From Calditrichales bacterium (GTDB taxonomy: Bacteria; Calditrichota; Calditrichia; Calditrichales; J004): a stretch of 38,567 bases of DNA. The notes beneath the pieces are model-generated. The model worked only from the letters and a program-made list of their open reading frames with translations. It was not told the origin of the DNA and did no database searches. The position numbers and the translations under genes were made by a program. The stretch's first letter is position 1; the number at the start of each line of letters is the position of its first letter. The stretch is from the NCBI GenBank assembly GCA_015493745.1, contig WGCN01000023.1, positions 1 to 38,567 on the forward strand. The letters run 5' to 3'. This document shows, in pieces, positions 23,528 through 26,767 of this stretch.

Positions 23528-23868
23528 CCCTTTGGGCAACACACCGGCCCCCTGCTTGCGGGCTATAAGGCGATCCCGGCCGTTTGGGACTTTAGGCATC
23601 CGTTTTACCGTCCTGGTCCGTATTCGTCGAGGCCCTGTACCTCCTTCTAATTTCATTTTCACCCCGAATCATATGGCGGATTAAACTGTATTTCCGGAGC
23701 AAAATCAACTGTTTACCGAGCGCCGGGATAATGCAACACGCTTATGGTGGTTTAGCGGATTCCGTTACCGATATTGAAAACGGTTTCCGGAAATAAAAAA
23801 AGCGTGACGGTAACCCGCCACGCTTCTTCGAGCCTCCAAAAGTAAGGTACAACCCGAAGGTCAATCTC
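23528..23868. other. Intergenic region, 341 nt, between convergent genes
   Basis: No gene is seen on either strand. A short GCCC-TTT-GGGC hairpin touches the NtrC-type stop codon but lacks a T-run. The right end holds the terminator of the subtilase unit (listed separately). The rest has no recognisable structure. Confidence 0.6.
23793..23825 (-). terminator. Rho-independent terminator of the subtilase unit
   Basis: Read on the minus strand, an 11-bp stem (AAGCGTGGCGG with CCGTCACGCTT, one G-T pair) and a 4-nt loop are followed by seven or more T residues. It begins 43 nt past the subtilase stop codon. Confidence 0.93.
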
Positions 23869-26058
23869 CTACTTCATTAAAATCATCTTGCCGGACTGTT
23901 GGAAATCCTTACTGATCACCCGGTAAATATACATGCCGGAAGGCATATGGTTGCCGGCGCTGTTGGTACCGTTCCAGTTGAATTTATAAACACCGCTGGT
24001 CAGGTTGCCCGTGTAAAGGCTTTTGACTTTTTTACCCAACAGATCATAAATCTCAACCGCTACGGCCGTCGTTTCGCCGTTGAGGGCCGGAATGCTCAGG
24101 GTAAAGCTGGTTGAGGGGTTAAAGGGGTTGGGATAGTTGGCGCTCAGGGCGTAGCTCTCCGGGATTTGTCCCACAGGTGAGATATCCTGGCCGGGGCTTA
24201 CGAACACCTTGATCGGTCCATGGTCGGTGGAGATACCGTTATTGTCGATATCCTTGAGTAAATACCAGTAGGATTGTGACTCCGATACATTGCGGTCGGT
24301 ATAGCTGTAGTCCTTACCGGTGGAAGAGGTTCCCAGTCCGCGCAGACTGTTGTAGTCGTTATAATCGGCCAGTTTTTCATAGGAACCGTTTTCGCTATCC
24401 GAGCGATAGACGGCAAAACCGATATTATCGATTTCGCTGGCGGTTTTCCAGTTCAGGGTAACGACACCGTTGGCGGCGCTGGCGGTAAAGGAGCTTAGTT
24501 CAACCGGCAAAGCCTGGTCGGCGGATTGTACCGCGGCAAAGGCGTTGACCCGCCCCGCTCCCAGTTTACCGATATAGGCGGCGTTACCGGCAATACTTTC
24601 TATGTCATCGGCGGTATTGTACAGGGTCTGCTCTACTTCGGTGGCGGTGAGGGCGTTGTTATGGCTCCATACCAGGGCGGCCACGGATGCGGTTGCCGGA
24701 GTGGCCATGGAAGTACCGCTTAAAAAGGCCACCTTATCATTGGCGTCATCGTTGGGATCATGATAGGTGCTCATGATTTCATCGCCGGGAGCAGATATAT
24801 CCACGAAGGTACCGTAGGTGGAAAAGCTGGCTTTTACGTCATTGGAGTCGGTGGCGGCCACGCCGATAACATCGCTGCGATCGAGCATATAATCGGAGTT
24901 CTCATTGTCGTCATTACCGGCCGCTTTAAAGATCAGACGCAGCTGGGGTTCATTGCCGGTGGGGGTGGTGGTACCATAAAGAAAGTAGTCGATGGCTTCG
25001 CCCAGACCGCCGGTGTTGGAGGAGCCCCAACTGCAACTGGCGATTTTGGCGCCGTTGTCAGCGGCATAGATTAAGGCATTGGCGGCAAAGTCCATGCCTA
25101 CAAAGCCGAGGCCAAACAGGTCATTCCAGCCGATACGCAGGGCCATCAGCCGGACGCCGTTGCCCTGACCGCCGGTTTCACCGTCACCGCCGGCGATGCT
25201 GGTTACCGCATAGCCGTTGTTGGAGATGGCGCCGATGGTGCCCATGGTGTGGGTACCGTGGCCATTGTGGTCGCTGGGGTCGTTATCTTCCACGTCATAG
25301 TCGTCGCCCACGTCAAAGTTTTGCGGGTTGCCGGTCACAAAGTCCCAGCCGATCCAGTCGTCGATATAACCGTTACCGTCATCATCCACGTTGGCCACGC
25401 CGTTCAGCTCGGCCTGATTGATCCACATATTGCCGCGAGAGGCTTCCTTATTGGTGGAGGAGGCATTGGCGCCGCCCAGGTCTTTGTGATAATAGCGGAA
25501 GCCGCTGTCGAGATCGGCCACGATGATGCTGTTGTTACCCCGTTCGATATCCCAGGCTTCAGGGGCGTCCACATCATGATCGGAAACATGGTTAAGATAC
25601 CACATGTCCCCGGCGGCGTAGTTGGGGTCATTGGGGGTTACCACGCTAAAGGGGTGGATACCGATCACCTCCGCGTCGGTCACGCCGCTGAGCAGTTTAT
25701 ACTGCTGTACGGCGGCATAAACATCCACATCGGTGTTAAAACGTATTTTAAACCAGCCCAAAAGATTCATCGGCCGGCCGTAAATATCAACGCTTTTGGC
25801 GGTGGGGAATTGTTGCCATAAACCGGCCACGCCCAGTTGCTGTGCCAGCTGGTCTACGTCATTGATACCGGTCAGTCCCTGAGAGCGGGCTTTGTCCAAA
25901 TCAAACTGCTGCCATAATTCTTTTGAAAATTTCACGCTTATTTCCCGCTGTTTTACGCTGGGTTCGGCTTTGGCGCCCGAAGAGGCATTGGGCGGCACAA
26001 CGGCCCAGCTTACGGTAAAAGCCAGTAACAGGGTTAGTAAAATAGTAGTAATACGCAT
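23869..26058 (-). CDS. Secreted subtilisin-like (S8) protease with type A sorting domain
   Basis: I choose the ATG at 26058 because GAGGAG lies about 7 nt upstream; two in-frame starts (26073, 26064) overlap that site. The 729-aa product has a signal peptide (residues 1-19), a propeptide (about 40-137) and an S8 domain with Asp184 (DLDSGF), His267 (GHGTH), oxyanion Asn382 (AAGND) and Ser450 (GTSMATP). Next come a fibronectin-like segment beginning LPVELSSFTA (about 518) and a C-terminal domain with YPNPFNPST (642-650), GKKVK and SGMYIYRV, the pattern of type A sorting signals used by type IX secretion. It is therefore probably exported and surface-attached or released. The Asp-rich 225-262 segment may bind calcium. 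It is encoded 18 nt after the propeptide-like gene. Confidence 0.93.
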   Translation of the reverse strand: MRITTILLTLLLAFTVSWAVVPPNASSGAKAEPSVKQREISVKFSKELWQQFDLDKARSQGLTGINDVDQLAQQLGVAGLWQQFPTAKSVDIYGRPMNLLGWFKIRFNTDVDVYAAVQQYKLLSGVTDAEVIGIHPFSVVTPNDPNYAAGDMWYLNHVSDHDVDAPEAWDIERGNNSIIVADLDSGFRYYHKDLGGANASSTNKEASRGNMWINQAELNGVANVDDDGNGYIDDWIGWDFVTGNPQNFDVGDDYDVEDNDPSDHNGHGTHTMGTIGAISNNGYAVTSIAGGDGETGGQGNGVRLMALRIGWNDLFGLGFVGMDFAANALIYAADNGAKIASCSWGSSNTGGLGEAIDYFLYGTTTPTGNEPQLRLIFKAAGNDDNENSDYMLDRSDVIGVAATDSNDVKASFSTYGTFVDISAPGDEIMSTYHDPNDDANDKVAFLSGTSMATPATASVAALVWSHNNALTATEVEQTLYNTADDIESIAGNAAYIGKLGAGRVNAFAAVQSADQALPVELSSFTASAANGVVTLNWKTASEIDNIGFAVYRSDSENGSYEKLADYNDYNSLRGLGTSSTGKDYSYTDRNVSESQSYWYLLKDIDNNGISTDHGPIKVFVSPGQDISPVGQIPESYALSANYPNPFNPSTSFTLSIPALNGETTAVAVEIYDLLGKKVKSLYTGNLTSGVYKFNWNGTNSAGNHMPSGMYIYRVISKDFQQSGKMILMK

Positions 26059-26076
26059 AGACATACTCCTCAAAGA

Positions 26077-26505
26077 TTAGGTTAAACAAAAAGGGAAAAA
26101 TTTTACTTCCTCAAAAGCCAGGGTTTGGACGCCAACGATCTGTGCCTGTTCCACCACGGGCAACTGTTTAAAGTCCTCAACGATATCTCCGGCATCCAGT
26201 TCGGATTCGAAATAGAGGATCAGCCATTGTTCTTCGCTCCCGGTTCCGCTGTTAGGATCGGTAAAGGAGACAATGGATTTGGTGTTTATGGACGAGGCCA
26301 GGGCGTCAAATTTTTTATTGCCGATGGAGATATTGTGGTTCAATGATGCGCGATCGACCCGTTGTTGCATTTCCGGGGTAAGTTTAATGGCGATCATCTG
26401 TTCCTGCCAGCGGGTCATGGCTAAGCCGGAAACAGCGCTTTCCTGCGCGCGGAGCGGTAAAAAGGCAAATCCGAAAAATAAAAACAGAATTACATTCCTT
26501 TTCAT
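26077..26505 (-). CDS. Stand-alone subtilase-propeptide-like secreted protein (142 aa)
   Basis: Start 26505 is chosen because AAGGA lies about 9 nt upstream and the product then begins with a signal peptide (MKRNVILFLFFGFAFLPLRAQ); upstream in-frame codons have no such support. The mature part aligns by eye with the propeptide of the protease encoded next. IAIKLTPEMQQRVD matches ISVKFSKELWQQFD, KKFDALASSINTKSIVSF matches NDVDQLAQQLGVAGLWQQF, and WLILYFESELDAGDIVEDFKQLPVVEQAQIVGVQTL matches GWFKIRFNTDVDVYAAVQQYKLLSGVTDAEVIGIHPF. It contains no protease domain. I infer a trans-acting chaperone or inhibitor of the subtilase, comparable in idea to I9-type inhibitors. Its own C-terminus (FFPFCLT) is unusual. 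It is the first gene of the two-gene unit. Confidence 0.8.
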   Translation of the reverse strand: MKRNVILFLFFGFAFLPLRAQESAVSGLAMTRWQEQMIAIKLTPEMQQRVDRASLNHNISIGNKKFDALASSINTKSIVSFTDPNSGTGSEEQWLILYFESELDAGDIVEDFKQLPVVEQAQIVGVQTLAFEEVKFFPFCLT

Positions 26506-26767
26506 AATGAACATCCTTGCAATCATTAGGTGGGCCTCCATGCCCTGAACCCGGTGTTTTGTGTATTTGTATCCCTTAAGGCAGGAACATCTGTAGATGA
26601 ATGTCATTATAAGCCGCGCGCCTATCGGCCATTGTGACCAATGTCATTAGAAAAAAAATAATTTTTATTTTTATCCGGTCAGTTCCCGGCCATCTGTGGC
26701 TAAATTCTTTGGGATAGCGTATATTAGGCGCCTTGCATTTAACCTTGATGGAATCAAAAAGACCCGC

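Follow-up and report, generated by a model that had tools for sequence, protein, structure and literature searches.

Judged by sequence, the genus to which the analyzed DNA belongs possesses a real, genus-restricted cis/trans pair of subtilase prodomains: a small gene for a predicted secreted, free-standing prodomain paralogue lies beside the gene of a subtilase precursor that retains a prodomain of its own. The window, i.e. the whole stretch of DNA analyzed here, comprises the initial 38.6 kb of a contig of 106 kb in the draft genome (3.71 Mb; G000) of an uncultured Calditrichota bacterium. The nearest public relatives of this genome are MAGs of the Calditrichota/Calditrichia; in the following, G001-G003 denote its congeners, and G004 and G005 represent the sister genus.

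Architecture of the gene pair

The first gene of the pair is an open reading frame called on the window (26077..26505, minus strand, read from 26505) that encodes 142 residues. Its interpretation as a secreted free-standing prodomain paralogue draws on the reading frame, on similarity to PF16361 and to a prodomain HMM (9e-13), on dN/dS ratios, and on orthologs in G001-G003. By inspection of the sequence, residues 1-20 form a predicted signal peptide (26446..26505, minus strand) with a site of the LRA-QE type and without a lipobox. Residues 33-130 (26116..26409, minus strand) make up the prodomain-like core, as delimited by HMM and hhalign alignments and the tail register; it closes with a TLA tail aligned with P3-P1. 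The C-terminal extension FEEVKFFPFCLT (residues 131-142; 26080..26115, minus strand) is missing from the G001 ortholog, whose end is TLA. Neither Pfam nor NCBIfam assigns the small protein a type A sorting domain of the T9SS. The small gene has its own reading frame, signal peptide, SD and stop codon in four genomes; as far as gene structure tells, the small protein is a separate gene product, predicted to be secreted, and not cut from a larger precursor.

The second gene (23869..26058, minus strand) encodes a subtilase precursor with a signal peptide, its own prodomain, an S8 catalytic domain and a T9SS sorting domain, assigned with Pfam and NCBIfam and with the start placed by SD spacing. 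The chosen ATG at 26058 fits the SD GAGGAG and leaves a gap of 18 nt to the stop codon of the small gene, the distance given in the initial annotation; the alternative ATG at 26064 lies too near the SD and was rejected. That the protease keeps its own propeptide was likewise claimed correctly, for the retained prodomain (Peptidase_S8_N; 25639..25962, minus strand) is recognized by PF16361 at 3e-9. The catalytic domain (24601..25533, minus strand; PF00082, 1.7e-35) carries the motifs DSG, HGTH and GTSMATP, and the C-terminus is a T9SS type A sorting domain (23881..24135, minus strand), with 40.7 bits for TIGR04183 (cut-off 23) and 27.2 for PF18962 (cut-off 27). Type IX export is credible because the genome encodes PorU (803 bits) and SprA (132 bits) and shows about 80 sorting-domain matches; with its type A sorting domain, the protease is a predicted cargo of this system. 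A PorU-type sortase, a second PorU-like protein and SprA are found on contigs C131, C13 and C1 of G000. One paper calls the type IX system Bacteroidota-only (PMC11982257); here, its genes are present in a Calditrichota genome. At least one further S8_N subtilase is encoded in the same genome (on contig C88), and the other subtilases of this genome are devoid of a small partner gene.

A promoter-like block of 44 nt (26606..26649, minus strand), composed of the dyad TGACATTGGTCA and TATAAT, is located upstream of the small gene, in the interval that separates the pair from uvrA; it was delimited by alignment with the sister genus and is conserved in the congeners. In both sister-genus genomes this block directly precedes the protease gene, with 31 of 44 positions matching in each (none of 500 shuffles was as good), so that the small gene is interposed between a conserved promoter-like region and the protease. 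The pattern has no second copy elsewhere in the genome. As a lead only, the dyad resembles CRP/FNR-type half sites and might be a control site for a member of the CRP/FNR family. Downstream of the protease, a strong terminator hairpin with a U-tract (~23795..23828, minus strand) is embedded in an 84-nt stretch with a dG of -33.7 and a z-score of -4.05; this signal, absent from the list of a simple terminator scanner, supports the view that both genes share one terminator. We infer that the block is the promoter and that the small gene and the protease gene are co-transcribed.

Relationship to subtilase prodomains

As evidence that the small protein is related to prodomains, a BLASTP comparison of its single sequence with the protease falls short: it yields an E-value of 0.015 and an alignment that is out of register. 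Profiles were used in its place and are decisive. When the four small proteins are aligned with 18 prodomains by hhalign, the probability is 98.6% (E = 6.1e-16, 102 columns), and an HMM of Calditrichota prodomains, built with the four adjacent proteases left out, finds the small proteins at E-values from 1.9e-13 to 1.5e-11, while the best unrelated open reading frame reaches 0.013 under the same HMM. The Pfam model PF16361 (Peptidase_S8_N) itself matches the small protein at E = 1.1e-4, under the curated cut-off. Even a gapped pairwise Smith-Waterman alignment with the adjacent propeptide, though BLASTP is weak, scores 71 against a mean of 29.6 for shuffled sequences (sd 5.5), with none of 3000 shuffles as high. 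The alignment proposed initially between the 142-residue protein and the propeptide of its neighbor thus stands up to pairwise statistics and profile methods alike. The aligned stretch covers the entire prodomain, and the core prodomain positions G42, D47, W74 and A101 (mature numbering) are kept in the small proteins. According to this whole-domain profile similarity, the small protein belongs to the subtilase prodomain family (PF16361-like). It shares 18% identity with the propeptide of its own neighbor; in sequence, it is not especially close to this propeptide, and no closer than to other prodomains.

The predicted fold points in the same direction at the level of the fold class. With the four small-protein rows as input, AF2 returns a pLDDT of 61; when prodomain rows are added, this value rises to 76, and most core blocks exceed 80. 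The model shows the topology of a propeptide, as described for subtilisin propeptides (PMC6993865), and its C-terminal tail is disordered. With both models, Foldseek retrieved ferredoxin-like proteins in large numbers, and its 50 best matches include no propeptide; the fold therefore speaks for the class and not for the identity. A fold unlike a subtilase propeptide, which would have spoken against the initial annotation, is not what the model predicts at this class level. A search of solved structures with the sequence returned chance matches and repeat-driven Pizza designs only.

The C-terminal tail was placed in register by alignment on the motif A(Q/E)xxGxH, counting as in subtilisin BPN', where we take the spacing from Glu69 to Tyr77 to mark P1. 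In the prodomains, P1 is most often Tyr, and His occupies the aligned P4 position in 21 of 22 Calditrichota prodomains, the remaining one lacking the motif. This His is missing in all four small proteins, whose aligned P4-P1 residues read Q/K/R-T-L-A. The protein of G001 ends exactly at the Ala aligned with the predicted P1; the other three continue with FEEVK... for 12 residues beyond it. The tail register fits a product-like inhibitor tail, with the cleavage position being a prediction; in the three species with the longer tail, product-like binding would need cleavage or a bypass of the additional residues.

With respect to selection, most pairwise comparisons of the small gene give a dN/dS of about 0.14-0.16 (range ~0.13-0.24, with saturated dS in the most diverged pairs); even at identities as low as 47%, its frame, signal peptide and SD are intact in four genomes. 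When G000 is compared with G002 and G003, the ratio amounts to about 0.06-0.07 in the adjacent propeptide region and about 0.06 in the whole protease. By these substitution rates, the small gene is under purifying selection, faster-evolving than the cis prodomain yet maintained; the cis prodomain itself is intact and strongly constrained, with no sign of relaxation. As to the origin of the small gene, the tree places the small-protein clade on a very long stem; its position closest to another prodomain group is weakly supported, and a local origin by duplication of the adjacent prodomain, with AU p-values of 0.18-0.23, is not rejected. The ancestral sequence may thus have been the adjacent prodomain or another one.

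Distribution in related genomes

Every one of the four genomes of the genus (G000-G003) has the pair, always divergent from uvrA, and none of the 36 other Calditrichota genomes does, sister genus included; the recurrence of the arrangement in close relatives was among the checks proposed at the outset. When 40 Calditrichota genomes were searched with a profile, no free-standing relative came up beyond the genus: one marginal match in G008 (E = 0.033) lies in a frame with stops, and all others belong to precursors, of which one has a split frame. The frames of G017 on contig C172 (L045:1-1995), considered as a second free-standing case, were rejected as a split precursor, with 234 residues in the N-terminal frame and the catalytic part in a second frame downstream; the split is probably due to a frameshift or an assembly error. 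Among 84,980 species genomes, a scan that reaches close relatives only recovered just the three congeners, and plasmid records yielded no relative.

In the sister genus (G004 and G005), the orthologous protease is the neighbor of uvrA at a distance of 0.3-0.4 kb; the small gene is absent, and the intergenic regions show no recognizable remnant of it. Gain in the present genus and loss in the sister genus would both account for this pattern. The sister genus also has a second subtilase-like gene after the orthologous protease (L035:9919-12091 and L036:10498-12255), which is not at that position in the genus of the window.

Across 155 genomes, nearly all Peptidase_S8_N matches are situated in long precursor frames, and the only other free-standing match is a lipoprotein in G024. 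This 134-residue putative lipoprotein (L046:2736-3140, contig C49), with a lipobox-like FACST and no adjoining subtilase, comes from another Calditrichota family and looks unrelated to the small protein.

Proposed function and comparison with known systems

We consider it reasonably probable, from sequence comparison, that the small protein is a trans-acting prodomain paralogue which inhibits the adjacent protease, as a safety catch added to the one in cis. According to this model, the small gene and the type IX cargo subtilase would be transcribed as a two-gene unit with the small gene first. After predicted secretion, the mature small protein would fold like a propeptide, dock on the catalytic domain of the neighboring protease and insert its C-terminal tail (xTLA) into the S4-S1 sites in the manner of a product. 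Prematurely matured protease molecules would thereby be inhibited, probably in the periplasm, as the small protein is without a type IX sorting tail. On export of the protease, it would presumably be left behind, and the enzyme would then be active only outside. A more specific version, which we put forward tentatively and hold to be somewhat less than an even bet, is an immunity-like device in which a freed prodomain paralogue under the promoter of the protease serves as a periplasmic trans inhibitor, such that the compartment, and not propeptide degradation, times activation. In favor of the inhibitor model stand the prodomain homology, the pairing in all four genomes, purifying selection on the small gene next to an intact cis prodomain, the location within the putative transcription unit of the protease, a predicted signal peptide in combination with a missing sorting domain, the end of the G001 protein at the aligned P1, and the propeptide-type topology of the AF2 model. 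Several observations run counter to it, namely the missing P4 His, the tail that extends past P1 in three species, and the lack of a propeptide among the 50 best Foldseek matches. Moreover, the sister genus does without the small gene, as do the remaining subtilases of this genome, and the target could be another protease.

Among the roles offered initially, inhibition of the enzyme and protection of the producer fit better than assistance in folding. The small protein could still be an external foldase, i.e. an intermolecular chaperone for the catalytic domain after Sec export that inhibits only secondarily. Prodomains are commonly chaperones and are able to act in trans (CspB, PMC3567191); ORF2, encoded beside ASP, is needed for ASP maturation and inhibits as well (PMC5638518); and a small gene in first position would supply a chaperone in time. 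But ASP is propeptide-deficient, whereas the protease studied here has a full prodomain, which is constrained in every genome that bears the pair, and the sister-genus ortholog has no small gene. The intact and constrained cis prodomain suggests that assistance in folding has not been handed over to the small protein, and we judge a foldase unlikely, though not far-fetched. It is quite unlikely that the small protein inhibits a different subtilase, either a cargo of the same cell such as that on contig C88 or the enzyme of a competitor, with its neighbor as a mere genomic partner. The absence of particular closeness to the adjacent prodomain, the weakly supported placement near another group, and the additional S8_N subtilase of the genome would agree with this; the strict linkage to one protease in four of four genomes and the shared upstream block would not.

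Recruitment to some other periplasmic task without inhibition of the active site, for example binding the protease or guiding it to the type IX machinery, could account for the loss of a near-invariant P4 His and for models that match ferredoxin-like proteins in general. We rate it as very improbable, given that the roughly 80 other sorting-domain matches of the genome have, as far as seen, no neighbor of this kind and that the core prodomain positions are kept. A functionless, decaying relic of a duplicated protease gene would evolve faster than the cis prodomain and sit on a long stem branch, as the small gene does, but hardly with such dN/dS ratios and with frame, signal peptide and SD preserved in four genomes; the chance of this appears minute. 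Practically negligible is an artefact in which one protein is split by a stop codon, by readthrough or by misassembly: both genes share a frame in G000, G002 and G003, but each has its own signal peptide and SD, and four independent assemblies agree. Stop-codon readthrough is ruled out by the 47-nt gap and the different frame in G001.

The inhibitor model has its closest counterpart in Plasmodium, where the gene neighboring that of SUB1 encodes SUB1-ProM, a propeptide-like protein that stands alone and inhibits SUB1 potently and selectively (PMC6993865). Both proteins are small, stand-alone and, in the present case by prediction, secreted, and each is syntenic within its genus with a subtilase that keeps its own propeptide. 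The stand-alone inhibitors of the MEROPS I9 group (Pleurotus proteinase A inhibitor 1, yeast proteinase B inhibitor and Arabidopsis SPI-1) and Toxoplasma MIC5 are likewise small, secreted and propeptide-like. All of these are eukaryotic and were detected by their fold, and the I9 trio is without significant sequence similarity to prodomains; in contrast, the present case concerns a bacterium and a type IX cargo protease, descent from prodomains is visible in profiles, and inhibition is the predicted rather than the established property. In bacteria, the subtilase ASP of Aeromonas sobria also has an adjacent partner gene, whose product ORF2 is both chaperone and inhibitor and inserts its C-terminal tail into the active site (PMC5638518); however, ASP lacks a propeptide, ORF2 is required for maturation, and its gene lies downstream, whereas here the prodomain is kept and the small gene lies upstream. 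In the case of SpeB and Spi from Streptococcus pyogenes (cited in PMC2873492), a protease gene is juxtaposed and co-transcribed with that of a propeptide-analog inhibitor; that enzyme is a C10 cysteine protease of unrelated fold, from another phylum and with another secretion route, while the partner here is an S8 protease. The prodomain of Clostridium CspB acts in trans as chaperone and inhibitor and blocks the active site via its P3-P1 tail (PMC3567191), but that trans arrangement was engineered, the natural prodomain being part of the precursor. The domain common to the small protein and the adjacent precursor, PF16361 (Peptidase_S8_N), is free-standing here and elsewhere nearly always part of precursors. 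Among the open-license papers searched, we found none on a bacterial subtilase that has both a prodomain of its own and a prodomain paralogue as a separate protein, and we do not claim priority.

Stand-alone propeptide-like inhibitors have been described mainly in eukaryotes, where a convergent origin has been suggested. The pair would represent a bacterial example whose descent from subtilase prodomains can be read from the sequence and for which gain or loss can be placed, as the small gene is present in one genus and absent at the same locus in its sister genus. It suggests a simple way in which a cell could shield its periplasm from a protease not yet exported by the type IX system, and would offer a natural cis/trans prodomain pair for separating folding from inhibitory roles.
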